Assembly (NCBI GenBank): GCA_021234155.1
Contig: JAJEKV010000103.1
Span: 3,100,001-3,164,000, forward strand
DNA length: 64,000 nt
Origin: Isoetes taiwanensis
Lineage: Eukaryota > Streptophyta > Lycopodiopsida > Isoetales > Isoetaceae
Direction of reading: 5' to 3'
The position numbers were made by a program, and so were the translations under genes. The notes beneath the pieces are model-generated. The model had not been told where the DNA came from. It searched no databases and was given only the letters and a program-made list of their open reading frames with translations. This document shows, piece after piece, positions 8,971-34,774 of the stretch; the stretch's first letter is position 1, and each line of letters begins with the position of its first letter.

Positions 8971-9137
8971 TTATTGTGGAGCGGCACTAGACGAAGCTCC
9001 TTCAGTGGAATCCTTGATGAAGAACCTATTTGCCAACAAACGCATGGTTAAAGCCACATGAACGCCGCAACTTGTCGCATCAACCTGGCTAGGCACATCC
9101 ATGTCCTGGATAACGAGTGGTGTAAGCCCATCCCGTA
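8971..9137 (-). pseudogene. 3' end of ULP1-like (peptidase C48) gene, cut off by the retrotransposon
   Basis: On the minus strand the frame reads DGLTPLVIQDMDVPSQ, then a VDATSCGV motif, and stops at 8971 after a serine-alanine tail. The Q and C of VPSQ...SCGV are the catalytic glutamine and cysteine of the Ulp1/SENP family of SUMO-type isopeptidases. The frame runs into the retrotransposon edge at 9138 and resumes without a break at 34770-34796 on the other side. The His and Asp of the active site lie further upstream at about 34912-35060. Confidence 0.75.
9133..9137. repeat. Target-site duplication (left copy), CCGTA
   Basis: CCGTA directly precedes the left LTR, which starts TGTGACG. The identical pentamer follows the right LTR at 34770-34774. 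Five bases is the usual duplication length for Ty3 elements. Confidence 0.9.
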
Positions 9138-10725: not shown

Positions 10726-10740
10726 TTCTCCCCTCCTTAG
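10726..10740 (-). other. Polypurine tract
   Basis: On the minus strand the sequence just before the 3' LTR is AAGGAGGGGAGAA, directly abutting TGTGACG. A purine run here is the primer for plus-strand DNA synthesis in LTR retrotransposons. Its position fixes the element on the minus strand. Confidence 0.85.
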
Positions 10741-14600: not shown

Positions 14601-14618
14601 AATGACCATTTACTTTCT

Positions 14619-16077
14619 CTAGGCATTTGGCATACATGATGTTGTCTTGGGGGCATGACCAAGATTTCTTTTGATGAGCTCCTCAATTATCTTTGGCAGC
14701 CTAGAAGGATCTACAACACCTTCTGCATAAATTACCGTTTTCCCTCCAATATCAACGAGTGTCACATTCACCTGGCTGGAAAGCAAGATAAGGAGTCCAT
14801 ATAATCCAAACAGCGATACATTGTTATTTAGAGGAGACACAAAACTCACCTCAAAACGTATAGCAGTGCTTGCACTTATACCTGTCTGCACCTGCATGTA
14901 AGAATTCATGTGTAAACAATTTCGAGCAATTAGAAGCCTATTCATTTTCCCCTTGAATTTACAATAGAAGTAAACTACCTGTGTGATGGGCAAGCAACTT
15001 GAATATTGCAGCTGGTCCAAACATCCACAGGGCAAATAGTTGTGAACGTGGTTGTAAATGGCACCACTTAGACAATCTGTTATGCCTTGTAATTGTTCGG
15101 ACAGAAAATCTGGGATAAAACCTGGTCGAGCAATCAGATCCAGTTGGGCCACTTCTTGTGTTAAACCTGTGAAATCCCAAACGCAACCCAATTCAAGTCC
15201 GCTGTTGCACCTGCAAATGAAGAACTATCTTTAAATGGAAGACCAGTGACCCCATGGCCGCTACTGCTAAAAAATGCGGCAATGATTCCTATCTGCAGTA
15301 AGTGGCGGGTTATAGAGGGCCCAGAAAATTGCACCTCTTTGAAAACATTATTGCTTACCAAGCTGCCACTGATTATGAAAAAAAGAGCACTTAACTAAGA
15401 AAGGTGCTACTTACTTAAGAGCGCCAACTCTTGGATGCAGACAAATGACAGACCAGTAGCAGCCCAGTTGGATTTAATCACATAAATAGTTGGCACCAAA
15501 ATACTACACTGGCACAAATTTCTTTAAAATGAATGCTCCCTAGCAAAAATTGGCAATTGTCAAGCAATTTCTACAGCCAAAACAATCACATTAAACAAAT
15601 AACGCAGCAATAGGACACTCCACCGAGAGTCTCTGTAGTGGAAGCATATGCATTTGACATTTATTAAGTCATTTTTAAAGCATAAAGGCGAACATAAGAA
15701 CCTCGAAGACAACGAGTCCTGGCCAAGCAGACTTGAACTATCTGTATAAAAAGGGGGAATCGTCTGGAGTAGAAAACATGGCTGCTCAAAAATTGACCCA
15801 ATGTTTAAGGCTATTTCTTTGCAAATAACATGTTATGATGCTAACTATAACTTCCAGAAATCGTGATTCCAAATGAAGAAGCAATGACAAAGCTACCTGC
15901 CACACCAAACAGATCCGGATATATATGGTATCGATCTGCTCTGTGGATGCGAATCTTGCGTACCTGATATGGGCGTCCACTTTTTATCAGAAAATGTTCT
16001 GGGGTTCCTCCAAATCGGCTCCAAAGCACCCTTTTTGGAAGATCCATATTATACAGGCAAATCATAGAGGCGGCCAT
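14619..16077 (-). pseudogene. Fragment of an intron-containing gene, product not recognised
   Basis: The minus strand shows exon-like stretches separated by good splice signals. One ends SGRPYQ with donor CAG|GTACGC (about 15963-16077). One ends GISQ with donor CACAG|GTTTAAC (about 15170-15361). One ends SCLPITQ with CAG|GTAGTT near 14985. A short exon starts VQTGISASTAIRFE and ends with GAG|GTGAGT. A last exon reads VNVTLVDIGGKTVIYAEG to a stop at 14619. The pieces are not proven to belong to one gene. I do not recognise the protein. The introns mean this was not copied in from a mature mRNA, so it probably entered as DNA, for example inside a gene-capturing transposon. It sits between pol and the 3' LTR of the giant element. 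Confidence 0.45.
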
Positions 16078-16520
16078 ACTGGCGCCAAAAAAAACTCGTG
16101 GGCAGAGCTCCCCAAAATACAGAGTCGAAAATTTTCTTGTATTTTATCTGTATCTTCTGGCGATCATTCTTATGCAGAAAAACCCTTGAGCTTCCTCTCG
16201 GCATATACTCTGTTATTGTGCGAAATACAGTCACCCCACATGCATAGAAGCCCCTCGTAAACCGATGGCAGAGCCTGTGTTGGGTATGAAAACCCGACAT
16301 GTAGATGATAGTGGATATGGATCTGTACCCTTCGTAGCAACTGTTTTCCAACAAATCTGGAAAGCTTTGCTATTACTGCCGCAGAGTGCTCCTATTCGAT
16401 CAATAACCAAGAGCATATCTGTATCAGAGCAAGAAAAAAATTAGATGTCTGCACTGCAGTAACAACCTAGATTTGCAAATCTCTATTAACGCATAGGAAT
16501 GAAACGGAAAAGCCTTCAAA

Positions 16521-16951
16521 CTAAGCCTCCGCATTTTTTACTGTTGTGCCAAAAAAAGCCTCAGCAATGTCTTTCATCTTGGTTAGAACCATTGAAGATA
16601 TTTCTTCAGCAGCAAACTGCTTCTCCTCGCCCTTGTACTGCACAATAATCATGGGCTTGTCACCTGGTCCGGGAATAACCTTGAATGGCCAGGGCTTATT
16701 GTCGCTCTGAACAGAGGTATCAGAGAACCGCCTTCCAATCAAACGCTTGGCATCGAAAACGGTGTTAATGGGGTTCCTGGCTGCATCTCCGATAAGACGT
16801 TCGGTATCAGTAAAGGCCACATAGGAAGGAGTGGTCCTGTTACCCTTGTCATTTGCGATGATCTCAACACGATCATGCTGCCAAACTCCGACGCAAGAAT
16901 AGGTAGTACAAGATCGATACCAATGGCAGGGCCTTCACCCTTTCCGGCCAT
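16521..16951 (-). pseudogene. Cytosolic Hsp70 (HSC70-type) N-terminal fragment
   Basis: The reading starts [14 protein letters not shown], the hallmark start of plant cytosolic Hsp70. It continues with [45 protein letters not shown] and [19 protein letters not shown] 1-nt deletion just after GIDL destroys the phosphate-binding loop and shifts the frame until about codon 38. Five residues before NPINTV are missing, and a stop follows NAEA, leaving about 140 of the usual 650 residues. The stretch around [12 protein letters not shown], where many plant Hsp70 genes have an intron, is continuous. A T-rich tract ending TTAG lies just upstream and resembles a splice acceptor. It is a dead fragment inside the giant retrotransposon. 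Confidence 0.9.
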
Positions 16952-17275
16952 CTCCAAGATCTAAGAAAAAAAAACGGATTTTTGACAACGGGTTTCATCT
17001 GTATACACAACCACAAACCCAATGCAGTACCCGCAGCCTGGGTAATGTCTTATGCCGGGAATGATAAGCAAAGAAACGGAAGCCGTAGGCGTAGACTGCT
17101 GAGAGAACATAAATTTTCACCCATTTGCATTTGGGGATTACTTACCAAACGACGTGGGAAGCCCAGAGATCTTAGAATGCGAAGAAAAGGATGAAAATAC
17201 CACTGTCGGCCATGAGATGAGTCTAAAATGCAGAAGAAAAAATCTTTATGCCACGTCATAGAAGACCATTAGGAA

Positions 17276-17575
17276 TCGTCATCATTAAAAGCTTTTAAAA
17301 AAAATGAAAAAAAAAAAGACATATGGCATGGCGCCACCTCACAATGGCATTTAATTCATTCTCTTTATCAATGGTCTAGATTAATTCCTCTAAATCGGCC
17401 CCAAAAAATGGAAAAGCCATTAAAATCAAAAGCCCCCAATTCTAACATTCAACCTCAAATAAATTAAAAGCCCCAAATATAGGATTATATAAACTGGGGG
17501 CTTTTGTAGCGTGGGATCCCGAGATCGAGATGGATGGGCCGAGAGATCAAAATGTCTACACACATCTACACACTA
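17276..17575. other. Promoter-like segment with repeated GGGCTTTT blocks
   Basis: Blocks of AAAGCCCC / GGGGCTTTT surround TTATATAAAC and are followed by GATGGGCCGAGAGATC and AAATGTCT. Similar wording recurs near 22995-23290 (GCCACCTCA, GCATTTAAT, GGGCTTTTTATC) and at the left end of the Harbinger element (GATGGGCCGAGAGAC, AAATGTCTC at about 37395). This suggests a shared transposon terminus or captured promoter. No boundary is provable. Confidence 0.4.
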
Positions 17576-17919
17576 AATATAATTGTATATATACAAGTTT
17601 TTTGTACTATCGATGGGATAAAATAAAATGGGATGAAAGCGAAAATGTATAGCTAGTTTGAATCATACATGTACCCATCTTTCTAAGATAAAGATTACAC
17701 TCAAACAATGAAAATCAAGTAAGAAGTTAAAATCCACACAAAATCGATAATTTTGCATTTAGCAAGAATGTTAGAAATTAAAGATTGTATCCTATTGGCT
17801 CGAGAAATAAAAAATCAAGCTAAATTTAGATTAAACCGGAGTCGTATCATCAAGCTAAAAAATTTAGATAACCATCATGATTTGATTATATTCTCAAAGC
17901 TTTTAAAAAATATTCATTC

Positions 17920-18270
17920 AAATTCCCTTAGATTCCCAAAGATTCTCTTGAGATTGCTCTAGATTCTCTAAGATCCTATGAAGATTCCCTTAGATTTTAC
18001 ATGATTCTTTTAGATTCTCAAAGATTTTATGAAGATTCCTTGGATTCCCTTAAATTCTCAAAGATTCTCTCGTGGTTCCCATGGATTCCCTAAGATCCTC
18101 TAGATTCCTCAACATTCTTTGTATTATTTATTTAATGTTATCCTTAACTAGTTTCTCTAGATTCTCCAAGATTTCTTAACGTTCCACCAAATCATTGCAA
18201 GATTAATTGAGATTCTATCAAAATTCCTTGAGATTTTCCAATTTCCCTATGCAAATGATGTGGAGTTAAG
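17920..18270. repeat. Degenerate minisatellite of AGATTCYCT-type units
   Basis: About 25 loose copies of a 10-13-bp unit around AGATTC (variants AGATTCTC, AGATTCCC, AGATTTTA) run head to tail. Strongly T/C-rich on this strand, with no coding frame. Confidence 0.7.
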
Positions 18271-20200
18271 ATAATTTAGAATATTGACATCAAGTTCCGA
18301 TGTTGAGACTCCATAATAACTTCATAACATCTAGACATCCCTCATTCCCTCTAGGGTTCTCAAAATTCCCTAGAGGCGTAAATGTGTTGCATGTTACGAA
18401 GTTCTAGAAGTATAATCAAGCTTAAATGGGTTGGGATGGTGAAAGAAGAGTTGAGGTAAAATTTGAAGACATCAAAGTCAAAGTCAACATTTAATTTGTA
18501 GAAGGTAAGCGCTATGACAATTCTATGGTTCTATAAGGATACATAGAACTATAGAGAGTAAGGACATTGCAAATGTATTTTGTCACTTCAACCTAGCAAC
18601 AAATCGGCATCAAACAAACTAAAAGCGAAAATGAATGCGAACCAATAACCAAAACATAGAAGACTATCAACTCAAATTGACCCTCATACAACCAAGAAAT
18701 GAGCACATCTAAACTAGTTATCAAAATGCATAGGCTAGACACGCAAAGTGAAGCCCAATGGCAAAGTGGCTTCATGGAGCAACAATAACATTACGACAAT
18801 CCTTAATGTGTTGCTGTTTGTTTTGACATATCATGGATAAGCAAGCCAATTATAGCGGGGAACTAGCTTATTTGCACCAAATACATTCTTGGAGGATAAC
18901 ATTACAGAAGTCATTAATCATGCACACATAAACAATCTAAGACCCACTGGCGAATGTAGTTTCCAAAAGGGCTCATTGTGTATTTACATTGAAGATCTTG
19001 TGCCTAAGTGTGGTCCTTGTAACCATGGAGGACCAGTTTTTTTGGACACGTAAGTGCATGCATTGTATAAGCACTCTATGTTTCCTATCTTTCTTGACCA
19101 TTCCTCGTGTTGCTTGGAGGCATAACATTCATCATTATTTATGTTTTTTTTTAACTTGATACATTGAGACAATCAAGGGAGGATATTTCATTGAGTATAG
19201 AAATTGGTTTATTTCCCAAAGGCGGTTCGGTAGGGTGGTCACGGGTGATTTTGTAAAAGCTTTTCTAGTGACACGTGAAATTGTTATGACATGGCGGGAG
19301 CTACATTCACAATTGTTGTCCCATCATTGCAACTCCTTAGATTCAATACCTTTTTGGCACGGAAAAAGGATTCCTCCTATCTTTGTTTTGGAGAGCTTGA
19401 GAAAGTGGTCTATCAAATGTTTCAAGAGGTAACTTTTGTATGGAACATTATGATAGTATCGAGGAGAAGATGAAACATGATAATGAAAATGATGATTGAA
19501 GAGTAAAATTGAAGTGTTTTTTTTCGGAGATTACGCTCTCAAAACAGTTATACTCTAATAATATGGAATAATATTCTCGTGAGCCAATCAAATAAAGTGG
19601 AAATTCATGCGAGAGATGGCAGCAAAAGAATAGTTAGAAGTTACATCATCATCACAAAGAGATGTACAAAAATTTCAAAAGCCATATCCTTTCCAACCTT
19701 ACATTTACTTTTCTAGAATTGAAACCGTTTTACGGTGACAAACAAACAATCTCTCTAGAGTGCCATATTCAAGCAACGTCTCTCCTGTATGCCCTCAAAA
19801 TACAAATGAACAACTCATCAGATCTCAACACACCTTGAAGCCCAAAGACGGAGGTTCCGTTTGGCAATGTAAAGCTTGTACTACGGCTATTAAACCAACC
19901 AAATCTTGGGGGCTGCTATGGCATGGAGATCGTGTGTTTAAATTCTTTGCTCGTTCGGATCTAAATCTACATCTTAAAGTTTTCTTGTTGCACAACTCAA
20001 TGGCAACCAATCCACAACTTTACGATTTCATAGTTTTCTTATTCGGCAAGCACAAACTATGTAGTTAGTATTGTTATAAATTTGGGATCGGCTTTGGCTT
20101 TTGTTATCTAGGTAGCAAGATATAAAAGTAACTAATTCAAGTTTGTCACATGAGCACCAAAAAACAATGCACATGTAAGGAAAAAAATGAAAATATCCAA
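18271..20200. other. Internal sequence of the giant retrotransposon, unassigned
   Basis: Short ORFs on both strands match nothing I recognise. No repeats of note. Confidence 0.4.
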
Positions 20201-20201
20201 A

Positions 20202-20480
20202 TTAGTACCTGGATTCTAGTCTAGTCTCGAAAAGCGCAGCCCCTTTCTCAAGGTAAGATTGACACAACTTGTTTTCTGCATCACATTCACAATCACGTAG
20301 CTTTCTCCTTATTCCAGCGAGCATGCTCTGTGAATGCAAGATTGGGTGGTTTGTTACACTTTCAACCTGTTTTTTTTGCAAAAGTTCAGAGCAACGATTT
20401 CTCAAATTTCATTTCCGAAAAATCGAGATTCTTACCTGGCAAGCCATACTCTGCGAAGACATAAAGGCCAGCAAGCTCTG
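20202..20480 (-). pseudogene. Two-exon gene fragment, product not recognised
   Basis: On the minus strand an exon ending MSSQSMACQ has a good donor (CCAG|GTAAGA). It is followed after about 60 bases by an acceptor (AAACAG|GTTGAA) and an exon reading VESVTNHPILHSQSML, then GIRRKLRDCE and LCQSYLEKGAALFETRLESR. The phases agree. The pieces look like real coding sequence, but the family is not apparent. The intron is unusually short for a plant. Confidence 0.4.
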
Positions 20481-20819
20481 CCCTAGCCACTAGCCTTCAA
20501 AGCATTCTAGGCAAAATCACTACATTCTGTATTTCTCTATTCTTGCACAATAGTCACATAACTTCTAGATTAATTACAAAGGATCCAGACGAAAAAAGAC
20601 GAAATAATATAGGCAAGCAAGACTCTTATTCCACAGTTTCATACTGATAGATTAAAATGAATCCCATATTCCTCAAAACAGCAAGCACAATCTGCTTGAA
20701 GTATTTGGGCAAGAGCATCAATCACTATCATAAGGGGGTGGGAGCAAAATTCCACCAAAATCACAATTCTCACCAAAAGTCGCGACCTACTCGGCCCTAG
20801 ACATCTAGCTGTTCGAAAT

Positions 20820-21780
20820 CATACTATTTGAGGCAGAAACATTAATAAGCCTAAAGCTGCCGAACCTAATGAGGCATCCATGTATTTCTGAGAGCTGATA
20901 TCCTGTCTCAACTAATGTCTAGACAACCAGAAAGATTAACTAGGCATCTTGTATTTTCAGAGTTGGCATCCTGGTCTGAATAATATCTAAATAATACAGC
21001 ATCTACTTCAAGGGTCATCACATGGAAACACGTGCACAGTTTAAAACACCCAACAAATGAGGATCAAGAAGCAAAACACAATAGAAAGTAATGGACAAAT
21101 GTAGAGCTTAACCTAGTATTTGAAAAAGAACATAGCCCAATCATTAACGGACATATCTAGAGCTTAATGTATTACTTACAAATGAACACAGCCCAACCAG
21201 CACCTGGATTCCACGTTGGTTTGAAAGCACACAGATTCCCTCTGGAATCAAGATTAAGAGTGCATGTAGTTCCTTCTGTCTGCATGCAGCCACGTCAACC
21301 ATTAGATTAGCTACACAACAGCAAGGTAAATAGAACAGGTAATTACAACTAGCCATCAAAACTTTCAGAGTTGCCATGCTGGCCTGACTAATGTCTAGAT
21401 AATACACGGTTTGTAACACCCAACAAATGTGAATCAAGCAGCAAAACACAATACAAACTAACGGACATATCAAGAGTTTAATCTACTATATAGAAATGAA
21501 CGTAGCCCAACCACTAACGGACACATCTACAGCTTAATCTATTATTTAAATATAAAACACATTAGCGGCAAAGACTGGATTCCACGTTGGTACAAAAGCA
21601 CACAACTTCCCTCTGGATGCAAGAGTAAGAGTGCCTGTAGTTCTCTCTTTCTGTCGGCATGGCAGCCACGTAAACAACTAGATTAGACACATAGGAGCAA
21701 GGTAAATAAGACAGGAAATAAACTACAACTGGCCAACAAAACTTTCAAAACTCTCTTATTCCATCCTATACTACAATAAC
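20820..21780. repeat. Diverged tandem duplication, period about 365 bp
   Basis: Segments at about 21120-21300 and 21480-21670 repeat in the same order: AGCCCAA(C/T)CA, an ACGGACA block, TGGATTCCACGTTGGT, AAAGCACACA and CCCTCTGGA. Partial third copies of the flank CTAATGTCTAGA occur near 20910 and 21390. One copy contains an exon-like minus-strand frame bounded by GCAG| and |GTGCTG, reading NLDSRGNLCAFKPTWNP. This may be captured coding sequence. Confidence 0.55.
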
Positions 21781-23131
21781 CTTTTCAACCCCATATCCCT
21801 TGGTACATACTCTGAAAGAAAACACATATATAACTTGGGACACCAAACAGCTGGAACAATCAACACAAAATATCAGGGAAGGAGCAAAATACAATGGGGA
21901 CTAAGGCATAAATTCAGATGCTAATTCATAATCTATAGCTACTATCAAACCACACAGATTTCGTCTACAGGTTAGCTTAATATTGTCTATATTTCTCTGT
22001 TCCTACACAAAGAAGGCATCAGAATTATCCACCAAGGAGATTGTGAATGCACAAGAGCTAGACAAATCCCATACCGATAAATTCATTGAAGCCCCACATT
22101 TCTGTGAATGCACAAGAGCTAGCAGCAGTGAAAGGCAAAAATGGAGTTGATCAGAAGCTTGCAGGGATAAATCCGGCACGATAGAATGAAGGTAACAGAC
22201 TCACGTTATGTTCTAGCTTGAAACCGGATGAAGATGGCCCCAAAGCGACACGCAATCATGAAGGATAACCGTAATATCGTGCAATGGAGGTAATGAATGG
22301 AAAGAAACAGAGGCAAAAACACTTATAGATGTATTTTTCGCGTTAGGTAAGCCAAGAATGCTCATTTTTAGGTTTGGAGAAGCAGGAGCTGTATGGAATC
22401 ATGTCTCCTTAAAAACCTTGAGGCAACCTCAATACTGAACTCGTAGGAGCTGAGAACACGACCTACTGGCTCCAGCATGTTTGTTATAACAGATAAAATC
22501 CCTTTCGGGAGTTTAGAAACCAGCATTCGCACACAAAGCTGTGTAACATCTGCTCACAACGGGATTCAGAGTCAGAATCATTTTGAAGGTCGGAAATCGG
22601 ATCTCATTCGCCTCTGGCGCCAACAAGTAATAAGTACATTAGAACGATGAAATATTATTTTAATCTTTTTGCCATACGTAACAAAAAAACAACTTCGATA
22701 CCAGTTCGTCGACCGCAGCAGTTACCCCAGAACCGCCATAGCTGCATCAAACTGGATGGAGGCAGGGGACGGATCTGGAACTGGACGAAGGGGGTTTCAA
22801 CGTGGGCCGTCCAGATCTGGAAAATGAGAAGCCCTGTCCGCCATAGCCGGACAGATCTGCCCCCTAGTCCAGTTCGAAAAAATGCCGCTCGGATTGCCTT
22901 CCAAATATTTCCTTGCAAGTTTTTTATTTTTTCGAAGCCTAACATTCACTGAAAGCCCTTAGATTTATTAGAATTAATTAATATAGGCAATTAAAATCGT
23001 GCCACCTCATAACTTAGCATTTAATGCATCTAGATAGAATTTAATTTTAATGACTTTCTGACCAACGGCAGAGATTAAACCCCTAAATCCAACGGCCGAC
23101 ATCCAAAGCCCTAAATAAGAGGGCTTTTTAT
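21781..23131. other. Internal sequence of the giant retrotransposon, unassigned
   Basis: No convincing gene. A short direct repeat (TGAATGCACAAGAGCTAG) occurs near 22043 and 22105. The segment from about 22990 resembles the promoter-like block at 17276-17575. Confidence 0.4.
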
Positions 23132-23286
23132 CTGGGCCGTCGATCTCGCACATTCGACGGCCCAGAAGGCGACACCTCAATCTCTACCAAAAGGGGGTTG
23201 CTTGGGGTGATTCGAGGTGTCACCTTTTGGACCGTCCATCTCAGAGATGGACGGCCGAGATCAATCTCTACCAACATGTTGGTAGA
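23132..23286. repeat. Cluster of four perfect palindromes
   Basis: Arms CTGGGCCGTCGA / TCGACGGCCCAG (23132-23165), GACACCTC / GAGGTGTC (23171-23221), CCGTCCATCTC / GAGATGGACGG (23232-23254) and the 20-bp palindrome TCTACCAACATGTTGGTAGA (23267-23286) lie within 155 bases. They could fold into a string of hairpins, or be the terminus of a foldback or MITE-like element just downstream of pol. Confidence 0.8.
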
Positions 23287-23899
23287 GCTCATATAATTGT
23301 ATATATATGAGTGATAAGAGATATGTATGCAAAACTTTAAAGTTTGAAAAAGAACAGTTCAAGCACCGAGGTACATTTCACATGATTATCATAATCAAAA
23401 AGTTCAAGGACCGAAGTCCAATACCAACATCAATGGAACAATAAACAAAACATGTAGGCAAAATAAAACTGAAGAGTTCGGGTCATCAGTAACCCTCTAG
23501 CATGGAAATTGGCACGACTGCCATTGGCTTTGCACATGTCAGTATATCAGTACATATGATGAAATTGTGGTTGAAGGGACCACCCCCTTATAATAATTAA
23601 AAGAAAAATACTATCCAGCAGGGAACCTATCATGTCTATGGTTTGCAGTTCCTTGCAGCATAGGGATTGGTGAAGTTCCCATTGTAGCCAAAAGGAAGGC
23701 GGGCTATCAACTATATGCTCTGCAACAAGTCGTGGTCAGGTCACTATTGACGGTACACCACGTCCTAGAGAAGACAAAGTGATCTCATCATCGGTAACCT
23801 GTTATTATTTACGATGCATCTACCCCTCTAAGGCGCTACTCCTGGCAGTCAAGCTTCTAAGCTTACCGCCAGTTGCGGGGTTGATAGCATCGTTGATGG

Positions 23900-24273
23900 T
23901 GCGACCTTGATTCAGCGATGAAGTCCGGATAATGCTTGTCAAGGTCTATCTTCATCACCCCATAGCATCTTCAAGCTGGTAAGTGTTTCCACTTAACCAA
24001 GTATTGCAACATTTGAGTCCTTCTGGTTTGTTTGTAAGCTCGATCAAGAAGAGCTTCAGGCACTATTTCGAGTTGCTCTTCTGTCATTTCTAGGAGGGTT
24101 GGGGAATCCAAAACCTCCTCTGGATCAGGGGTGTGTTGTTTCAGAAGACTCACGTGAAAGACCTTGTGGATCTTCAAAGCGGGCGGCAATTCTAAGCGAT
24201 ATGCCCGCTCTCCAGCGCTCAATAATCTTGAATGGTCCAGCCCATCCGGGGGCCAACTTTTACTGGTTGCCAA
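23900..24273 (-). CDS. Integrase C-terminus and chromodomain of the retrotransposon
   Basis: The minus-strand frame has YRLELPPALKIHKVFHVSLL, the usual end of a Ty3 integrase. It is followed by EALLDRAYKQTRRTQMLQYL, VKWKHLPA and, after a frame change, DLDKHYPDF. This is the aromatic VKWK core and C-terminal helix of a chromodomain. Chromodomains direct integration by binding modified histone tails, usually on histone H3, and define the chromovirus group. The TW-type element after VKWK is degenerate (AEDAMG) and the frame is broken near 23970. Confidence 0.8.
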
Positions 24274-24299
24274 TTTTAAGCTTGGCTTGCTTCACTTTA

Positions 24300-25437
24300 A
24301 TCTTAAGCCAAACTGATTAGCCCCACGGAAAATGCGTGGGGTTACGGCTTATCGGCTACACTTTTTCGACGATTGCGTGCGACCAACAAGTAACCCACGA
24401 ACTTCTTCGACCAGAGCTTGCATCTCCAGGAGGAGTTTTTGAGAAACCTCCACCTTAGAAATGGGGTTATGCCAAGTGTCTGGAGTAAGACATTGGTAGC
24501 CATAGTTTATCATAAAGGGAGACATCACGGAAGACTTACGTTTCATCTTTGTTATAGGCAAACTTCGACCCGGATAAATATAGTGACCCATTGTGATTGC
24601 TTACTCACACATAACTTCTTAGCATATCCTCTATAATGCGATTGGTACATTCTGTCTGACCATCCGTTTGAGGATGATATGCCGTACTCATAGCAAGCTT
24701 GGTCTGAATGGTGGCAAAGAAATCTTTCCAGAATGCACTTACAAATTTGGGATCCCTATCCGACACAATTACTCGTGGCATTCCGTGTAATCTCGAAGAT
24801 CTCCTTGGCAAATAGCGAGAAAGGTATCAAAGTACTGTATCAGCGGGTGCGACATGGCAAGAAATGAGCCATTTTCGACAATTTGTCGACCACAACCATT
24901 AAGGCATCATACCCCCGGAGAGTTCTTGGAAGGCCCACATTGAAATCCATGGTTATCACTTCCCATTTGGCGTTGGGGACATCCAGAGGTTGTAACTTCG
25001 CTGGAATCTACTTCTTTCGGCTTTTGGTTTCTTTGGCCGGACGACGATTAACGCCTAATGTACCTGGCAATGTCCTTTTTCATAGAAGGCCAGAAATAGC
25101 TGGAGCGAATCTTGAAGTAGGTTTTCATAAAACCTGCGTGTCCAGCTATAGGGCTATGTGTGTCATGAAGAATGAGTTTCCGTACTCCTGAAGTCTTCGG
25201 TACACACAACTTATCCTTGTGATATAATAAGTTGCCCTCTTTCTTATATGCACGAAAAGCCTCACGCTTTGTATCCGTGCGAGCTTCCTTAGCCAAACTA
25301 TCCCAAATGTCACAAAACTCCGGATCTGTGGGCAAGGTCTGCTCTATCTGTTTCCCAAACTCACTGGTGAGCGTAGAAATGGCATTACAATGGGTTCGGG
25401 TTACCAAGGGATGGCGTGACAATGCATCCGCAACCAC
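24300..25437 (-). pseudogene. Integrase zinc-binding and catalytic core, frameshifted
   Basis: From 25437 the frame has HDTHSPIAGHAGFMKTYFKI, the HHCC zinc-binding start, and SSYFWPSMKKDIARYI. After frame changes the core continues with [13 protein letters not shown] near 24880, VSDRDPKFVSAFWKDFF (second catalytic Asp) and STAYHPQTDGQTE (catalytic Glu) at about 24605-24811. The enzyme would insert element DNA into the genome, but at least two frameshifts inactivate this copy. Confidence 0.85.
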
Positions 25438-25680
25438 ATTGTGTTGCCAGGCTTATACATAATCTCAAAATCATATTCTTCTAGAAATTCCATCCATCTT
25501 CTCTGACGGAGGTTGAGATTCGGCTGGGTGGATAAATAACGGAGACTTTGATGATCCGTATCCAACTGGAATCTTCTACCAAGAAGGTAGTGTCTCCATA
25601 TATCAGTAGAGCACCGCGGTCCAGCGGCCAACAATTCCCGATCATGGGTAGGATATCATTTGCTTTCTGTTTCATTCATT
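25438..25680 (-). pseudogene. RNase H segment, frameshifted
   Basis: The first half of RNase H ([13 protein letters not shown]) is at the end of the RT frame, which stops at 25656. The remainder continues in other frames as WRHYLLGRRFQLDTDHQSLR, LRQRRWMEFLEEYDFEI and MYKPG. That is the normal order for Ty3 RNase H, with two frame changes between about 25620 and 25660. Confidence 0.8.
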
Positions 25681-27233
25681 TTCTTTGAGTCATAGGCAAT
25701 AACCCTCCCCTCCTGCATTAGGACTCCCCCGGTGGCAATCTTGCTGGCATCCGTCGCCACCAGTTTATCCTGGTCAGGATCGGGCAACGTGAGAACTGGT
25801 GCTGATGTTAGGGCATCCTTAAGCTGCTGGAAACTCTGCTGAACTTTTGTCTTCCAGTGGTTCATCCAATCTTTCACCTTCTCATGCTTTGTGAGATTTG
25901 TAAGAGGAGCTGCAATGTTCGCAAAATCCTTTACAAATTTTCGATAATATCCTGCTAATCCCAAGAAACTCCGGACTTCGGAAACATTCCCTGGAATAGG
26001 CCATTCTCTTACGGCCTCTATCTTTGCGGGGTCTGTAGCAATTCCCTCTGCCGAAATGATATGGCCCAAATAATCGACCTTCGGAGTGGCAAACTTGCAC
26101 TTAGAGAACTTGGCATAGAGTTGATGACGCCTTAGCTTTTGTAAGGCCAATCTAAGATGTTTCTCATGGTCCTCGAGGGTCTTACTATAGATGAGAATGT
26201 CGTCGAAGAAAATAACAACAAAATCATCCAAGTATTGTCGGAAGACATCATTCATTAGGCGCATGAAAGTTGCTGGGGTATTAGTTAGTCCAAAAGGCAT
26301 AACTGTGAATTCATAATGCCCATATCTAGTGCGAAAAGCAGACTTATGGATGTCCTCCTCTTTAATCCTTATCTGATGGTATCCGGAGCGGAGATCAATC
26401 TTTGAGAAATACTTAGCCCCTTGCAACTGATCCATTAGGTCATCTGCCCTAGGCAAAGCATAGCGATTCTTGATGGTATGCTTGTTGAGTTGCCGATAAT
26501 CAATACACATCCTCAGCGAGCCGTCCTTTTTCTTAACGAAGAGAATAGGAGCGCCAAAAGGCGAAACACTAGGTCGGATGAAACCTAGGTTTAGTAGCTC
26601 CTGAAGTTGCTTCTTAAGTTCTGCCAATTCTGGAGGACTCATACGGTACGGGGCCTTGCTGGTAGGCTTGGTACCCGGCTCTAAAGCTATTTCACATTCC
26701 ACCCCTCTAAAAGGAGAAAGCTTCTGAATCTCATCTGGGAAAAGGTCACCAAATTCCCGGAGAAGATGAGCAATCTCCTCTGGCAAGGTATCGATTACTT
26801 GCTTCTGTTTAGCATCTGACTCTATGGAAGCAAGCCTAATGACGCAAAGGAGCTTCTCCTTGCGTATAGCTTTAGCTAACTGTCTGATGGACATAGACTG
26901 CATGATAGGGTTGAATGGTTCACCTTTGATAGTCACGCGGGCTCCATTAGCGGCGTTGAAGGTAACTTCTCTCTTCTCGCAGTCTATGTTGGCTTTTGCA
27001 GATGCCAAGAATTCCATACCAACAATGAGGTCATATTTGCCAATATCCATCAATTCGGCACCCAAAGCAAGCGGTGCACTGCAACGCATCTTAAGATTGA
27101 TGCGGCGGCCATGAGTATGCCTGACCTTACCACTGGCTAGAGTGACAGGCCTCGGTCGGGATCTTAATGTTTCAAGCTGTAAGACCTGGGCCATCCTAGG
27201 GGAAGCAAAATTATGTGTACTTCCCGTATCCAT
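25656..27233 (-). CDS. Retrotransposon protease and reverse transcriptase (intact 525-residue frame)
   Basis: The protease active site is [11 protein letters not shown] at the start, with a second conserved segment [13 protein letters not shown] follows: [91 protein letters not shown], the catalytic box FFDDILIYS, the YLGHIIS segment and the primer-grip region [12 protein letters not shown]. The box is FFDD rather than the usual [YV]IDD or YVDD, but both aspartates remain. The enzyme copies element RNA to DNA in cytoplasmic particles. This is the best-preserved part of the element and has no internal stop. Confidence 0.95.
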
Positions 27234-27296
27234 AAGAATTACAAAAGGCCTACTGTCTACTTGACCTATGGTGGAAATGACAGGTGACTTTCGGCA

Positions 27297-28590
27297 TTAC
27301 CGGTTTCTATAGTCGCAAGGATATGAGACGACCGTGAATATACCTCGAGCCTCCTCTTCGACGGTAAAGGTCGACTCTAGATCGTCCCAATCGAGGTCGG
27401 CCATGGCCAGCTGGGCAGTCTGCGTAACATAAGGACAATTGTGCATGAAGTGCCCAGGTCGCATACACCTGTAACATGCCTTGTCCCGGCGGAGCTGTTC
27501 TCGGGCCTCCTTAGGAATAGACTGTAAGAGGCTCCGCGACTTCCTTGCCGACATTCTTTGTGTTTATCGGCCCGCGGCCGAAGTCACTTTCTTCCGGCTG
27601 GCTATACGAAGTTCTCTTTGAGAGGGCCCGGACTTGGCGAACGGGGTTTGTATGGTGTGGATGGCCAGGGCTGCGAGTAAGGAGCAGGACGCGGATACTG
27701 GTTTCTTGGTGTGTCATCCTCAAGGCTCAATGCCTTAGCCTCGACCTCATGGGCCGATTTGGTCTATAGCCTTAACCATCCGTTTGATTGATGGGGCCAA
27801 CCTTCAATATAGCCCCCTACGGCTCTCTTTTCATTCATACCTGGTACATCTGACCAAAGCATAAATTCATCGGTGTAAGCCTGAGCAGACATACCCTTCG
27901 CTCCAACCTATAAAAGGTCCGAATCTGGCGGCATTTGTGCGACACGAGGCACATAATGTGACTTGAATGCCTTGGCAAACTTTACGAAGTTGCACCGCTC
28001 CGTCCGGATAATGCTTGGCCCTGGCATACCCCTTCCACCAAATCAAAGGCGACTCTGTAAGGTTGGTGGTGGCAACCTTTCTGTATCTTTCTCCGTCATG
28101 CCATAGGATTTTCCCAAACTCCTTCATTTCATCCAACCCGGGGACTCGCATTGATTCGCCTCACGGATTTCCCATCAAACCGGGCCAATTTCCTATTCTT
28201 CCATATACTAGTTATAGTTTGTATCAACCGTCTTCACGGTACTCCTTATCCGTGGCTTTGCATGGTCACCCGGTGATCTGGATGAATCGGAAGACACCGA
28301 AGTGGTTGGCGTGAGGAAGTGGCGCTATCCTTAGAGGAACCGGGGCGCTTAGCATGAGGCCTCCTCACCGGTGCGATGGGGTGGTTCGAGGGGAGATGGC
28401 TGTTGTGCAGGTGGACTCGGTGGTAGCGGAGGTAACTCCGGTCCATCTTCCTGGGTTTGCTGCGGTGGGTTGGCATGCAACACATAGGCTTGTAACTCCC
28501 CTAGCCGCCTTTTCATTAACATCAGTTCTGTTGGTGTGAGTCACTTGGCATTTGAAGGCGTCGCGGCTGGCGTTCACGTGCCCCATCTAA
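27297..28590 (-). pseudogene. gag (capsid and zinc knuckle), several frame changes
   Basis: The C-terminal part contains one CCHC knuckle, CYRCMRPGHFMHNC (about 27465-27510), preceded by a basic RKSRSLLQSIPKEAREQL stretch. Upstream are capsid-like segments WSDVPGMNEKRAV, TNLTESPLIWWKGYARAKHY and RYRKVATTNL (about 28000-28150), typical of the Retrotrans_gag domain. The probable start lies near 28560, with LMKRRLGELQAYVL and a proline-rich stretch. At least four frame changes break the gene. Confidence 0.75.
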
Positions 28591-28599
28591 ATTGAGCAT

Positions 28600-31060
28600 G
28601 AAAAAGGTATAAGCATATTTATAACACATAAATTCTTACAAATTTTATCATGTCGGACAAAGGGTAGAGAGAGAACATAAGGGAAATGTATTATTATGAG
28701 AGGAAAAACTTTTCTATTACAGTTTTACACCTTGAAATTTTGTCAAAAGTTGGCGAGGGGAGTATTACACAAGGACAACATGATACAACCGAAGCTTAAA
28801 GTTGAGCTCACATCTGATTATATAACACAAAAAGAAACTGGAAAGACCCGCCTAGGGTTCGCAAAGGGGCAAGGATTGAATAGCGAACACTCTCACGCCG
28901 ACAACCCTAACGAGCTTGTAAGCGTGCCCGGGCTGGACAATGGCCGGTTGGTATTCCCCGTTGGGCTAATAATAAGGAGATTGAAAAGCCTCCTCAAAGC
29001 ATAAAAAGAGTTGCCCGGTGTGTCGTTAAGCGTCCCTCGAAGGCGGTGCTGGTCATGCTCCAATAGTCCCATGTGCGGCACAAAGTTTTCTTGGTCCTCA
29101 AAAGCTCGTCCCCGAGGATATTAACTATCTCCATCCCTTTGGGTTTGGATCATAGGGTTCTCCCGGTGGCGGGGTTCCATCTCATAACCTTCATCCCATT
29201 CGGATATTCTCCATATCTTTGGCCATAGTCTGTTGGGCTGCCCCGGATCCTCCCTCCAGGATCATGTGGGTAATCCTCTCCTCATATTCCCAAAGGGTCT
29301 CTTCTGCAAGACAATGGAAATGAATATAGAACATTCCGTAATTTCATTATATTCTAAACGCCAATAATTAGAAGAAGACATCATGGAAAAGAACAACTCT
29401 CACTTGTATTCATCAAGACAGTAATCACAATTGATGAGAAAAGGGGTATATTATATTATAAAATGGCTAGAGAATTTGCCAAACCAAAATTTTACAATCA
29501 GACACAATACAAAAATGCGTAGTACAATTATTCAAGAACTAGGGCCTCCCTCTTCATTCGTAGGCCTAGGAGGTGGTGGTGGTGATGCGGTGTCAGCCAG
29601 AGTCACCCAGGGGTCTCTTGTGGCAGCCGCAATAGATGCAACCTCTGGTGGATAGGCAACAGCCAATGGGGCTGCCGTAAGGAGCTTCATGCTCATCCAG
29701 GGTGCAATATCTTGGCCCAAGGCCGTCAGGGCAAGATCCCGTCGTACGAATACATAAGTAAACGTACGATGGGGAGCTTCTTATGCCCGCCAATGTGGAG
29801 AGCACGGAGGGTCCACCATGAAGCTTGACCTCAGGCCCTAAATCTCGGGCTATAAAAGAACTTAGCTCTGCCGAAAAGTCGATAAGAAAAGCGGGTAAGG
29901 TGGTTTCCCAATACCTTCCCTTGTGGGGTCTCGGCGTAGCCACTTCTTTATCCAAATCCATAGGGACTTCTTCTTCCTTAAGTTCTGTTGCTCCTCCTTC
30001 AAATGAGTAGGATTATGGTACAAATCCTCTCCCTAGATCATCTGAACCGGAGGGAACCTCAACCATATTGATATTTGGGACATGAGGTCCCATAGCCGGA
30101 AGGCATCGGGTGAGGGCTGGGAGGGCGGCTCCTGCATCACCAAGTCCGGCCGTAGCAATGTCTCGGCGGGTTCTATAGTCTCTGGCGGAGCTGGGCATTT
30201 CTGCTGCACCTCAGGAGGAAGCTCAATAGAAGTGAAGTCGATGAAATCGTCCATACAATACTCGCAAGCTCATAAAGCACATGGTCTTTTTAAACTTGCG
30301 CCCTAAATCAACCACCATGTGATAGGTCGAGATAATATCCTCCAAGAGAAGATATTCTTGCCCTTGGTGATGAATAAGCTGGAAAGGGCATCTAGTCGAC
30401 AAGCCTACGGCTTGCTCGCGGCGGGGCGACTCTTCCGCCTAAGCGCTTCCAACGGGCAAAGTAAGCCCATGCCTATGTGTTCGTCTTCCCCTCCTCGGGA
30501 AGACTTCGAGGCGGTTGCCTTTCTCTGACCAAAGTTTCATCCTCGGCGTATTGGTCCATGAGGATGGCTAGGGCAAAAGGCAACCTCAAAGGTATTGCCG
30601 CCCACGATCTTTGCAACAGGCGGTGTTTACCCATCAGACTTTCCCTTCAGACACATCATATGCATGGGTGTCTCCCCTAACATCTCGGGACTACCTCCGC
30701 TCCGGATCACAGTTGGGGAGGATCCCCAAGAGGAATACACAGAGGGAGCATCTCTTCCATGTAGAAGTCTAGAAATACGGCATAATCACGGATCTGCGTG
30801 CATGTTGGTAATGAGATCTAGGCTGGCATAGCAAGGGGGCATGCACTGGTCGAAGGCCACTTGCGGATCCGGTGCTCTCAGTCTTCGTACCATGCAAGCA
30901 AGTCGGTGGTACGCCATAAACTGAAAGGGAGGAGAGAGGAAGAGAAACAAATCTAACAATTCAAATGAACTTTAAAAGTTCTTTTAACTCCTTTTATTTA
31001 TCTTGTCGACCCTTGACAATTTGACATTTAAAATCAAATATAAGGTTCTTAATACAACTT
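28600..31060 (-). other. Extra region between gag and the H3-like gene, with unassigned coding fragments
   Basis: Minus-strand coding-like fragments continue here without a normal gag equivalent. They include MAYHRLACMVRRLRAPDPQV (about 30925, directly after an acceptor-like CCCTTTCAG), an acidic proline-rich stretch starting MDDFIDFTSIELPPEVQQ (30254) and a fragment at 29532-29961. Frames break often. I do not recognise a known Ty3 domain. The histone-like hints are listed separately. Confidence 0.5.
29532..29961 (-). pseudogene. Unidentified fragment with weak histone H2A-like wording
   Basis: The frame from 29961 reads PHKGRYWETTLPAFLIDF and later VLSTLAG. In a second frame VRRDLALTALGQDIAP follows, then a proline-rich tail. 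KGRY, a P-x-[FY]-L helix start, a helix ending LAG and an RxLxL segment occur in the same order in H2A (KGRY, PVYL, ELAG, PRHLQL). Spacing differs by about 14 residues and identity is low, so this is a hint and not an identification. DLALTA also occurs at the matching helix start of the neighbouring H3-like protein. Confidence 0.25.
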
Positions 31061-31085
31061 GACTTAGAACAAAAAGAATTTTTTA

Positions 31086-31547
31086 TTATTTATCAAAAAA
31101 ATATTTACAATGGGAAAACCACGGTAACACGAGGCTAAGGGCGCTCCCCAGAATCCTGCGGTGAGGGCTAAATCCTTTGGCATAATGGTGACTCTCTTTG
31201 CGTGGATCGGCGCAAAGGTTAGCGTCACCAAAAAGTGCCACCAAATAGGCTTCCGCGACCTCTTGGAGCGCCAAAATAGCAAAGGTGTGGAAAGCGGAGA
31301 TCGGTTTTGAACTCTGCGTGATCTCCGTAACGACCTCACGGAAGGAAGCTTTCCGTATCGAGAGTTGGGTTGACTTGAAATTTCTGGATCTCGCCCGTAA
31401 GGCAACGATCTTCGGGCGGAACACGTGGGGCTTCCTCGTGGGGCGGGTTTGTAGGCGACCCCTTGGTGGGTGCACCGTCTTGGCTCCAACAAACTGGTGG
31501 GGAGTCATCCACATTTCTTGTCTCCGACCGAGTGGTATTCTTGCCAA
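31086..31547 (-). CDS. Histone H3-like protein encoded by the retrotransposon (single frameshift)
   Basis: The frame opens MAR like histone H3 and has a basic tail of about 38 residues. It then aligns without gaps to the H3 core: RKPHVFRPKIVALR, FKSTQLSIRKASF, EITQSSK, LALQEVAEAYLVALF and DANLCA. One extra base (c at 31208) shifts the frame. The H3 C-terminus, HAKRVTIMPKDLALTAGFWG, continues in the next frame to about 31133. By eye roughly half of the core residues match canonical H3. The tail lacks lysine at positions equivalent to K4, K9, K14 and K27. Loop 1 is not lengthened, unlike centromeric H3. The gene has no intron. It lies between the 5' LTR and gag, on the element's coding strand. 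Whether it ever formed nucleosomes or mimicked H3 is unknown. Confidence 0.85.
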   Translation of the reverse strand: MARIPLGRRQEMWMTPHQFVGAKTVHPPRGRLQTRPTRKPHVFRPKIVALRARSRNFKSTQLSIRKASFREVVTEITQSSKPISAFHTFAILALQEVAEAYLVALFGDANLCADPRKESHHYAKGFSPHRRILGSALSLVLPWFSHCKYFFDK

Positions 31548-31562
31548 AAGCTCAAACGGTCT

Positions 31563-32100
31563 TTAATTTCTCCTTATATTGGCTTGGGATTTTGGACCCA
31601 CGGCCTTCTTACGGTGCTTAATGGTGCGTGTATTTGGGGTGGGTATTGGTCGACCCACTCCACGATGCCCCTCGGTCCTGCTTGGTTTAATTTGGTTCGC
31701 TGAAGAGCCCTCTCCTCTGTTCAAGCCTCTCCGTTCCTCCAGGGCTCTCCTCGAGATCTTCTTGAACACGGGCGAAATGTTGTCTTTGAGCCGGTGAAGA
31801 AGTTCAGCATGGTACCGCCGGGCGGCCCGACTCATATCAATGCGGATGCGTGGTTGGGTAATCCGGCTGATATCGGGGATCGGGGCTCCCCACATGGAAG
31901 CTCTTCTTGAAGCTTCATGCCATCCGATCGGGGAACCTCAATTGCCACGCCATCTATGGCGGCAAAGTCTGTCCCCCTAAATACGGTACTCCCTTCCCGA
32001 GAGCCGCCGTATCCGCTTTCGCTCAATCTCCCGATGGTCATCTTCCTTAGCCAAGCCTCGATGCGATCGGCCTCGGTCCCGATGTCCTCCTCCTCACGTA
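31563..32100 (-). pseudogene. Coding-like region upstream of the H3-like gene, faint H4-like wording
   Basis: Minus-strand fragments read IEAWLRKMTIGRLSESGYGG (near 32041), then in another frame ISRITQPRIRIDMSRAARRY and LKDNISPVFKKISRRALEER, followed by a basic tail rich in R, K and P to a stop at 31563. ITQPRIR and the later VFKKISRRAL fall at spacing close to ITKPAIR and VFLENVIRDAV of histone H4. The third helix is not found, so this is suggestive only. It sits 15 bases upstream of the H3-like start. Confidence 0.25.
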
Positions 32101-32127
32101 TGCCCCTCTTGTTCGGGAGGATAGAAC

Positions 32128-32385
32128 TTATTCAAAGATCATGACCATGTCATGTTGCTTTCGGCGATGGTATAAGAAAGGCGAATGTTGGCCCGGATCG
32201 GGGAATGGCTCCGAGAAATGATAGATAGGATAGGGGATCCTATCGTTATTCTCAAACCGGTTCACCAACTCGTCCAGAAGGATGTCGATGAAAGCCGGGT
32301 CGGTGGCCATATACCGGGCGATCATGGCATAAATCTCAACTATGGTTAGGGTCGAAGGGTCTGGGGCGCTCTTGGTATTGGCCAT
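32128..32385 (-). CDS. Small acidic ORF near the 5' LTR, unknown
   Basis: An 85-residue frame starts MANTKSAPDPSTLTIVEIYA and continues with MATDPAFIDILLDELVNRFE and RIPYPIYHFSEPFPDP. It is the first credible frame downstream of the 5' LTR and primer binding site and may be the N-terminus of the element's extra protein. No domain recognised. Confidence 0.4.
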   Translation of the reverse strand: MANTKSAPDPSTLTIVEIYAMIARYMATDPAFIDILLDELVNRFENNDRIPYPIYHFSEPFPDPGQHSPFLYHRRKQHDMVMIFE

Positions 32386-33169
32386 AGCTGTGGCGCTAAG
32401 GTATAAGAAGGCAGGCAGTGAGGCGCTTGCGGCAAGGGAGACGGCAATAAAGGCGCTAGGGTTCACAAGGCACAAGGGCGGAAGAGCAGAGTCAGGTCTG
32501 GTGGCGATGGCGGGCATCGGCTCGGGCGGTCGAAGGCGCTGGAAGCAGGGCGGAAACAAAGCAACAAAAAGAAAGTTTAACGGCCAGTTAACTTTTGAAA
32601 TTTTAAAAATTTTCTTATTAACTTTTAATTTCGTTATTATAAAATAATTATCTGGGCGGACATCTGCTGGCATGCTCTGATCGGGCGCCCGGCATTATCT
32701 GGCGCTTTCGCCTCGACTAGGAATCGTCGAAAAGCAAGCGGCGCCCAAGTTGACTTTTCAGGGCCGCGTTGACTCCCCATGCAAGACGGGCCGGGCGCCA
32801 TTTGCATTTTCGCTCTTCCACCGCGGTGACAAGAGGCGATAAAAAGCAAAGCGGCCGGGAATTGGTTTCGGACTGCCCTTGACCATTTTTTAGGGAGGCG
32901 ATTTGTTCTAGGGTAATTTGAGTGCGCCCGATCCAATGGAACCACCTTCTCCGGTCTTTTGAGCTACCCAGCGATATTTACATCTCTTCCAAACTTGGGC
33001 CCTCCAATTAAGCCCTATCTTCTTTAAAGCTACAATTTCATAATTTAACCTAAACCGAAACCAAACATCAAAGAGGACTAACAACACATTAACTTAGCCT
33101 CCTCCTAACTACCAGGTATTTACGAAGTTAGTGTTTGGCCGGTGCTATGATTTCGAGCAACCAAAATCA

Positions 33170-33182
33170 CGGCTCGATACCC
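33170..33182 (-). other. Primer binding site (tRNA-Met-like)
   Basis: Two bases after the end of the 5' LTR (minus-strand CGTCACA) comes GGGTATCGAGCC. It differs from the tRNA-iMet complement GGTATCAGAGCC used by many plant retrotransposons by an added G and a missing A. Position and sequence fit minus-strand priming. Confidence 0.8.
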
Positions 33183-33184
33183 TT

Positions 33185-34769
33185 TGTGACGCTCCCCGAA
33201 TATATACGACCACACCGACCATACACATACAGGGGACTTTCCCTCCCATGGCAACCACGTGCCATGAGCGTGAACCCTCCGTCTATTCGGGCCATCTATG
33301 AAATGATGCCCGAAAGAAGGACACGAAGGGGTCATTCGGCCCACGCCTTCAATGGGGCTCCTACGTCGCGGACGCATGAATACAAGGTTAGCATACAACA
33401 TAAATCACATATAAATAACCACCACGAGGGGTGGCACATCCATCCAAGTACCAACGGCAAAGAATATGCATCTAAGCTAAGAAAACACCCAAAACCCAGG
33501 TTCTACCCCGGTTCAGACTCTAGTGAGGCGGCCCGACACCGGGTCTCGGGGAGATCGGCCAGGCCGAAGTCTTGGCATGGCGTTGGCTGGCATAGAACAT
33601 CGGCTAGGGTTGTCCACTCCATCCGCCCCTCCAGTGCACACTTTGCAGATGGGTCGATTCACGCTATGGCTTCGCTATAGCCTTCAGGGAGACGCGGACT
33701 TCGGGGTATCACCCTTTGAGCCTACTCGGGTTCATGACACTGTCCGATGAGGCGGGGTCGGGGAAGTGTCCCCTTCGGGATCACGGTGGTTCCATGGGTG
33801 AGCTAGAGAACACGTGCCGCGTCAGCGACCCCCGCATCCGTACCCAACTTACTCACCCTAAATCTACTCAAAGTACATGGTGCCCCATACGGGTCACACC
33901 ATTGCACCCAGGGAGTGTCAGACCCATACCCGCCCTCTGGTGGCTGTCGGGCCTAGCCCACTGTAGGAGTCTCAGGAGCCTTTTATGCTCGTGCAAGACC
34001 CCACCCCCTACTTCACCACTGTGTCCCTTGTCTGGTGCTAAGCCAGACCATAGCGTCTATGACCCGGTGGGCTCTTGTGCACAGGCCGAACTAGTAGGGT
34101 GTTAACGGAAGTACTAGGAGCATTCTATACCCAAGCTCAGAGGCCTCTACCCCCCCTTTAATCCCTGTTTACTGGAACTACTAAACTAACTCATAGAGAC
34201 ATCAACCATCCCATAACAGAGCATCATTCATAATTGAAAAGTATTCCTAATTACCAAAGAAGGGTTAATCTCACCCAAAACTAGCGAGAAAAAGAATACT
34301 AGAGTATTATTCTACAATTTGCAAGTTAAACTACCACTAACCGTAGAGTTTCTATTTGGACCCGTTGTCAAGGGGGTGCTTCCATAGTCTTCATCTTTGG
34401 GGTAGCGGCGGCTGTAGAGGGTGTCTTGGCGATTGGGAGATGTTCACAACTATGCTCTCTTGGCGCTTTAGTCGCTCCTTGGTCTTTGGCCGGGTCGAAA
34501 TTGGGGTTAAGATGGGGTGGCGCCGCCTTTTGGTGGCTCGGTTTAGAAACCCCATGTCGGGCCACTCGAGGTTATGCCAAATGGCCTTCCCACCATTAGG
34601 TGACTTAATAGCAAGTATTTAGATAATTATCCTTTATAGTTAATTTAACATAGCTAATTAAATCCCTTGTGGCCAACCCCCTAGGTTATCATACCCCAGG
34701 GTGGGTATCTATACTGGTGACGTGTCAATATATTTACACGTAGACCGTATAAATACTTGGAACGTCACA
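33185..34769 (-). repeat. 5' LTR of the giant retrotransposon
   Basis: This 1585-bp copy is the partner of 9138-10725, with TG...CA ends. In the element's direction (minus) it would hold the promoter and transcription start. I do not see an unambiguous TATA box. Confidence 0.92.
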
Positions 34770-34774
34770 CCGTA
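34770..34774. repeat. Target-site duplication (right copy), CCGTA
   Basis: Directly follows the right LTR end CGTCACA and equals 9133-9137. Confidence 0.9.

Follow-up and report, generated by a model that had tools for sequence, protein, structure and literature searches.

An ancient histone H3 fusion gene is an integral part of a chromodomain Ty3/Gypsy retrotransposon lineage in Isoetes taiwanensis

Plant chromoviruses, in the accessible portions of two published accounts (PMC2864245, PMC3350952), are Ty3/Gypsy retrotransposons with TG...CA long terminal repeats (LTRs), a 5-bp target site duplication (TSD), a Met-type primer binding site, the gene order gag-PR-RT-RH-IN and a chromodomain that ends the integrase. 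No histone open reading frame is mentioned in those portions, and the Selaginella element SM-Tcn1 is described there with gag and pol only. Mobile elements that carry a histone gene are already known from fungi. According to the available part of PMC3538342, a hAT element of Pyrenophora tritici-repentis has its own H3-like ORF (H3L); it is a DNA transposon with terminal inverted repeats (TIRs), present in 26 nearly identical, recent copies in the reference genome, with ESTs reported, insertions in the histone tail and suspected drift in the fold. A captured H3 has likewise been amplified by a hAT in Pseudocercospora fijiensis and relatives, where the hundreds of copies were inactivated by RIP (PMC6710886, in the part available). 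Large DNA viruses are also selfish elements encoding core-histone homologues, in the form of several histones or doublets (PMC9145170, PMC11500106, accessible portions).

Here we describe a chromodomain LTR retrotransposon of Isoetes taiwanensis that shares the chromovirus features listed above but, unlike the described chromoviruses, places two large ORFs ahead of gag, with a histone H3 domain at the end of the first. It differs from the hAT-borne H3L, a case of transduplication within an element with TIRs and a hAT transposase, in being an LTR element with reverse transcriptase and integrase; its H3 is part of a fusion protein and shows saturated synonymous divergence and strong constraint. 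In contrast to the large DNA viruses, the retroelement has just one histone domain, an H3 joined to a non-histone partner and very close to host H3. Among openly licensed PMC papers, we found no retroelement with a histone gene. The original prediction that no chromovirus of such a layout had been described thus stands for retroelements within that literature, but H3-like genes in fungal hAT elements are in print, and the retroelement case is an addition to them. An LTR retroelement as carrier, a histone fused to an element domain and long-term constraint are the apparently unreported features, which we have not seen in print.

The element lies on the minus strand at 9138..34769 of the analyzed 64,000-nucleotide stretch of contig JAJEKV010000103.1 (hereafter the window), where it was recognized by its LTR pair, its TSD and its PR, RT, RH and IN domains. 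The 5′ LTR (33185..34769, minus strand, TG...CA) and the 3′ LTR (9138..10725, minus strand, beginning TG and ending CA) measure 1.6 kb each and are 89.5% identical. At its outer edge, each adjoins an identical five-base sequence (TACGG in coding-strand orientation), located at 34770..34774 on the side that is upstream for the coding strand and at 9133..9137 on the other, in agreement with the perfect duplication first noted. Directly inside the 5′ LTR lies the primer binding site (33160..33184, minus strand). Of 17 copies compared, 12 have TGGTATCAGAGCC here, which we take to be of the initiator-tRNA-Met type, and five, the window included, have an altered sequence. The apparent length of 25.6 kb arises because a later insert of ~12.5 kb occupies positions 10790-23290, as comparison with another copy (L009) revealed: the positions flanking the insert sit ~25 bases apart there. 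This insert, in the 3′ part of the element, contains a strong HSP70 fragment (2.6e-42; 16521-16934, minus strand) and might represent a transposon that had picked up host sequences before nesting here.

From the 5′ LTR inward, the gene order is ORF1, ORF2 and gag-pol, all on the minus strand. The ORF1 region (31130..32385, end approximate) begins with an ATG at 32385 and comprises an N-terminal element domain (31797..32385), a basic linker in place of the H3 tail (31434..31622) and a histone H3 core equivalent to residues 37-135 (31130..31433, end approximate); its reading frame is broken in the window copy. ORF2 follows at 29560..30920 (ends approximate; ~460 aa in intact copies), then gag at 27297..28632 (ends approximate), with a CCHC knuckle at 27462-27476. 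As first noted, the H3 domain is encoded on the same strand, after the 5′ LTR and before gag. Pfam delimits protease, reverse transcriptase and the start of RNase H (25656..27296) and the integrase zinc-binding domain (25048..25452); the SH3-like C-terminal part of the integrase and the chromodomain lie at 23900..24168, in a frame that is broken in the window.

The Pfam families recovered in the window were RVP_2, RVT_1 (1.5e-38), RT_RNaseH_2 and Integrase_H2C2. Ty3_capsid was matched in copy L023 (2e-16) and Chromo (PF00385; 1.6e-8) in copy L009:3-554, behind SH3_Tf2-1, and the cognate capsid and chromodomain motifs are likewise present in the window, the chromodomain residues at 23986-24009. 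With LTRs, a 5-bp TSD, capsid-PR-RT-RH-IN and a chromodomain after the integrase, the element is a chromovirus. Elsewhere in the window we noted a broken DDE_Tnp_4 transposase (37768-39062, plus strand), which we take to be of PIF/Harbinger type, next to a Myb/SANT-like frame (40792-41268, minus strand), a pairing as in Harbinger elements, and an inverted repeat pair (478-1003 and 62504-63063; 69% identity across 564 bases).

The window frame at 31086-31562 (minus strand) matched PDB H3 chains at 3e-21 and Pfam Histone at 7e-15, and intact copies matched PF00125 at 6.6e-41 (L016) and PDB H3.3 at 1.8e-52 (L023), scores that rule out a chance resemblance and uphold the H3 homology that had been claimed. 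A protein search with the broken window frame returned no match among 63 candidates; with an intact copy, 5805 H3-type proteins stood among 8000 scored. The histone fold is present in one ungapped piece, with 86 of 99 residues identical from K37. Relative to host H3.3, 11-12 of the 99 core residues are changed; T107A and I124L are common to the two element families described below, and positions 86, 87, 102, 125 and 135 are altered in both. The residue preceding K37 is R in all nine element copies compared and K in all four host H3 genes; both families thus have R where H3 has K36. At residue 77, where host H3 has E, many element copies also have E and others Q. Core positions that we take to contact DNA, H4 or the second H3 are nearly all kept.

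Centromeric H3 (CENH3) is likewise an H3 variant with a replaced N-terminal tail. Its loop 1 is longer than that of H3, whereas loop 1 of the element H3 has the H3 length in all 22 open cores; together with a core identical to host H3.3 at 87 of 99 residues, this rules out a CENH3 origin. The canonical ARTKQTARKS tail is absent from the intact copies compared, which have ~300 aa of element sequence instead. The predicted absence of K4, K9, K14 and K27 was therefore correct in outcome but not in its reason, since the entire tail is replaced by an element domain and linker and the tail quoted in support was partly out of frame.

Two details of the original prediction did not survive comparison with intact copies. 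The frame at 31086-31562 has no ATG start: the M of its supposed "MAR" beginning is a TTG within a longer open frame, and intact copies use another frame there. Nor is a single extra base at 31208 the only break, as the frame changes more than once and the pieces of ORF1 fall in separate frames at several places. Assembly errors at methylated sites probably account for some of these breaks. Compared with copy L012, the window copy carries substitutions at 23% of CG, 25% of CHG, 8% of CHH and 11% of A/T positions (25%, 24%, 13% and 16%, respectively, against L023), and indels at 5.9% of CG and 4.2% of CHG sites versus 1.8% of CHH and 2.1% of A/T sites, a ~2- to 3.3-fold excess at CG/CHG. Deamination is insufficient as the sole cause: 144 of 281 CG/CHG substitutions against L012 are of types other than C-to-T, and indels concentrate at the same sites. 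It is these non-C-to-T changes and the indel excess that point to assembly error. The corresponding non-deamination shares in other copies are 24/77 (L016, a cleaner copy) and 48/153 (L024).

Mismatches and indels concentrated at CG/CHG sites were observed in five noisy copies (the window, L014, L015, L018 and L021), a pattern that is probably Nanopore error at methylated cytosines. Base-calling at such cytosines may have erred in repeats beyond the reach of short-read polishing, and real decay may contribute. The assembly, given in the accessible part of its description as 1658.30 Mb in 204 scaffolds and 909 contigs, was built from Nanopore reads by minimap2/miniasm, followed by racon and pilon polishing (PMC8566536). 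Errors of this kind call for caution in diagnosing pseudogenes among plant repeats when an assembly was made in this way.

In intact copies, ORF1 is a single fusion protein. Complete reading frames of 404-414 codons from the ATG were found in L016, L023 and L025 (3 of 20 loci under a strict pattern), and long fusions are open in L059, L060, L062, L064 and L065 too. The order is an N-terminal domain, a charged stretch, the basic linker and a C-terminal H3 core of ~105 residues. None of 4153 public protein candidates sharing words with the ORF1 N-terminal part gave a score, and a comparison of this part with PDB gave nothing convincing (best E 0.22). ORF2 (~460 aa) had no Pfam match above the cut-off; inspection by eye showed a pair of similar motifs in it, of the form LPVxxxxGxxYL.

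Of 20 linker rows, 12 read in frame, and 10 of these contain an ARK[S/T] motif; the corresponding site is AHKS/AHKA in L060, L062 and L065, and the divergent family lacks the motif. In the chromodomain of the element, presumably only one of the three aromatic residues of the cage is present. With an inconstant motif and an incomplete cage, recognition of the linker as a histone-tail mimic by the element's own chromodomain is a weak proposition, and a simple loop in which the chromodomain reads its own H3 is not supported.

We searched the assembly (1,658,258,908 bases, 1110 contigs) with the H3 segment; among the 40 of 1227 first-look candidates that were scored, 39 places besides the window matched at 79-88% identity. 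All 39 were taken, as 20 loci of 9.5 kb (one of them, L011, covering two places) and 18 loci of 1.4 kb; having been chosen by their H3 match, they yield counts that concern H3-bearing loci. A 5′ LTR lies near the H3 segment in all 20 long loci, and in 19 of them the order 5′ LTR, ~1.6 kb, H3 and ORF2 region runs in one continuous orientation, so that the expectation of several copies with an H3 frame at the same place was borne out. In the remaining locus, L022, an internal inversion has flipped the H3 segment relative to the 5′ LTR. In 15 of the 20, the next feature is a match of >1.1 kb to the gag-PR stretch (in two pieces in L018), and the sequences end there; among the other five, L011 retains 136 bases of this stretch, the piece in L010 is inverted, and L017, L022 and L028 have none.

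Six elements were traced to their far ends. L012, L016 and L023 have a matching far LTR and exact 5-bp TSDs (TTATT, GTGAA and ACTTA), and the far LTRs of L024, L025 and L027 are partial only. LTR-pair substitutions in the three fully bounded elements number 94/1522, 140/1563 and 16/824 (aligned part), assembly noise included, and these three are independent insertions of different age. The presence of the H3 segment at the same place in many elements rules out a one-off capture.

In a search of the genome with a plant H3 protein, the best 150 of 9022 first-look candidates were scored. Fifteen were host H3 genes, full length and 96-98% identical to the query, whereas the other 135 were element-type by identity (71-86%), most aligning only from about residue 17-36. 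Twenty of the 135 were inspected at the DNA level (nine newly fetched, 11 from earlier loci), and all 20 had the element-type core. The sequence is thus neither near-identical to a host H3 gene nor present only here. No stop interrupts the match in 129 of the 135, and for 49 the surrounding stop-to-stop frame spans 400 aa or more; because the 135 are the best-scoring matches, the intact share of the whole family lies below 49/135.

The H3 core was then compared across 39 loci (38 fetched plus the window). An unbroken 91-residue core is present in 22 and a broken one in 17, the window among them. Across the 231 pairs of the 22 cores, dS has a median of 0.56 and a maximum of 1.19, and dN/dS (NG86) has a median of 0.023 and a maximum of 0.086 in the 222 pairs with dS above 0.1, well below 1, as an element gene was expected to show. 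Twenty-two pairs of cores are identical in protein at dS of 0.08-0.96. Parsimony-informative sites number 5, 1 and 53 at codon positions 1, 2 and 3, and the other two frames of the same DNA give median dN/dS of 2.15 and 2.24 (38 and 15 usable pairs). Selecting copies for an open core lowers dN somewhat, but it cannot create dS of 0.5-1 with an unchanged protein. The H3 core is under histone-grade purifying selection.

A smaller set allowed comparison by region. Median pairwise dN/dS was 0.033 for the H3 core (10 copies), 0.062 for gag (7), 0.066 for protease (3 copies, only 2 pairs), 0.115 for the ORF1 N-terminal domain (5), 0.12 for ORF2 (9-10) and 0.16 for the linker (9). Among these six regions, the core is the most constrained. 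In a Mantel-type test on 6-9 copies, third-position distances in H3 showed a weak, non-significant correlation with distances in the LTR, ORF1-N, ORF2 and gag (r 0.16-0.28; permutation p 0.06-0.24), which gives no firm support to strict co-descent of H3 with the rest of each copy and makes recombination between element copies likely.

These values bear directly on whether the H3 might be a passenger, acquired accidentally from the host and of no use to the element, as with H3 in fungal hAT transposons. That precedent and the 17 of 39 loci with a broken core speak for it. Against it stand a dN/dS of 0.023 with dS up to 1.19, the fusion to an element domain, retention across divergent families and the concentration of differences in noisy copies at CG/CHG sites. 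The copies of P. fijiensis are inactivated by RIP; the core is open in 22 of the 39 sampled Isoetes loci. A passenger pseudogene is contradicted by dN/dS, and a single recent burst of open copies is excluded by dS. We therefore consider carriage without function very improbable. Copies with H3 at the same place, dN/dS far below 1 and divergence from host H3 substantiate the original claim that the gene belongs to a chromodomain LTR retrotransposon, and we regard it as virtually certain that the H3 fusion is integral to the element and under constraint.

A second, divergent family extends this history. In L063 (C1014), which belongs to a different family, a 260-aa fragment of ORF1 is open and contains the N-domain motif, a different linker and an H3 core. 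In its neighborhood (L066), homologues of ORF2 (L066:5569-7060), gag and protease follow one another as they do in the first family, those of ORF2 and gag being fragmented; no LTRs were found in the 9 kb around L063. On the minus strand of L066, a chromovirus-like gag-pol of yet another family adjoins the divergent H3 element.

Between the two families, 85 of 99 H3 core residues (86%) are identical, versus 36-40% in ORF2, 45-52% in gag, 58% in a protease stretch, 43-45% over the whole ORF1 fragment and about 30% in the ORF1 N-terminal part (18/60, counted from the alignment). Synonymous differences are saturated between host and element H3, and also between the families (pS 0.80-1.02). Saturation between host and element indicates that the capture is old, and a single old capture of H3 that would predate the family split is the simplest reading of these comparisons. 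ORF1 is an ancient, integral gene of this chromodomain Ty3/Gypsy lineage.

The same comparison weighs on a role inside the particle, in which the H3 domain would condense DNA or RNA in the virus-like particle or pre-integration complex and not act on host chromatin. The position of ORF1 upstream of gag and its basic linker would suit such packaging, and histones of large DNA viruses do form nucleosome-like structures (PMC9145170, PMC11500106, in the portions available). The element, however, is already equipped with a gag that includes a capsid domain and CCHC knuckle, and packaging alone would not lead one to expect 86% identity in the H3 core across families whose gag is 45-52% identical. 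In passing, we noticed no element-borne H4, H2A or H2B. On balance, packaging appears unlikely.

H3-like action, that is pairing with H4 and entry into nucleosomes, would be the most likely role, because nearly all core residues have been preserved in an element that otherwise diverges. ORF1 would pair with host H4 and be built into nucleosomes or, at the least, host histone chaperones would bind ORF1-H4 in the manner of an H3-H4 unit. Chromatin would thereby receive an H3 with an element domain in place of the modifiable tail, and this N-terminal domain would be exposed. Displayed in this way, the domain could tether element particles or integration complexes; or the chromatin of the element could be kept from marking at K4, K9, K27 and K36. 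We hold incorporation into nucleosomes or chromatin, as a working principle drawn from sequence comparison, to be evenly poised.

A further possibility is that the H3 domain hijacks nuclear import or histone chaperones, recruiting H4, Asf1 or importins so that the element complex would enter the nucleus or follow replication, with nucleosome assembly unnecessary. The C-terminal core of H3 is where H3 meets H4 and Asf1, and in the element it is nearly unchanged. Positions 86-87, which presumably adjoin a variant-specific chaperone motif, are changed in both families, also as such hijacking would have it. The presumed DNA-contact residues are nevertheless kept across the core, beyond what import alone should need, and we give import or chaperone hijacking a low probability.

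Taken as a whole, an ancient, integral H3-fusion gene combined with placement of ORF1 on chromatin is the explanation towards which we lean slightly. More tentatively, deposited ORF1 might act as an H3 with an element-made tail, leaving chromatin on element DNA or at integration sites unmarkable at K4, K9, K27 and K36 and recognizable by element proteins. An effect of the element H3 on host chromatin, as first proposed, is plausible as a hypothesis.

Histones are textbook examples of essential host proteins, and a retrotransposon that has long kept an H3 fusion, with the histone more conserved than any other region compared, has a chromatin building block of its own. It offers a system for asking how H3 silencing marks act on transposons, and whether elements write or block chromatin states. 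As a natural tail swap, it would also allow biochemistry to ask which features of H3 are needed without the tail.
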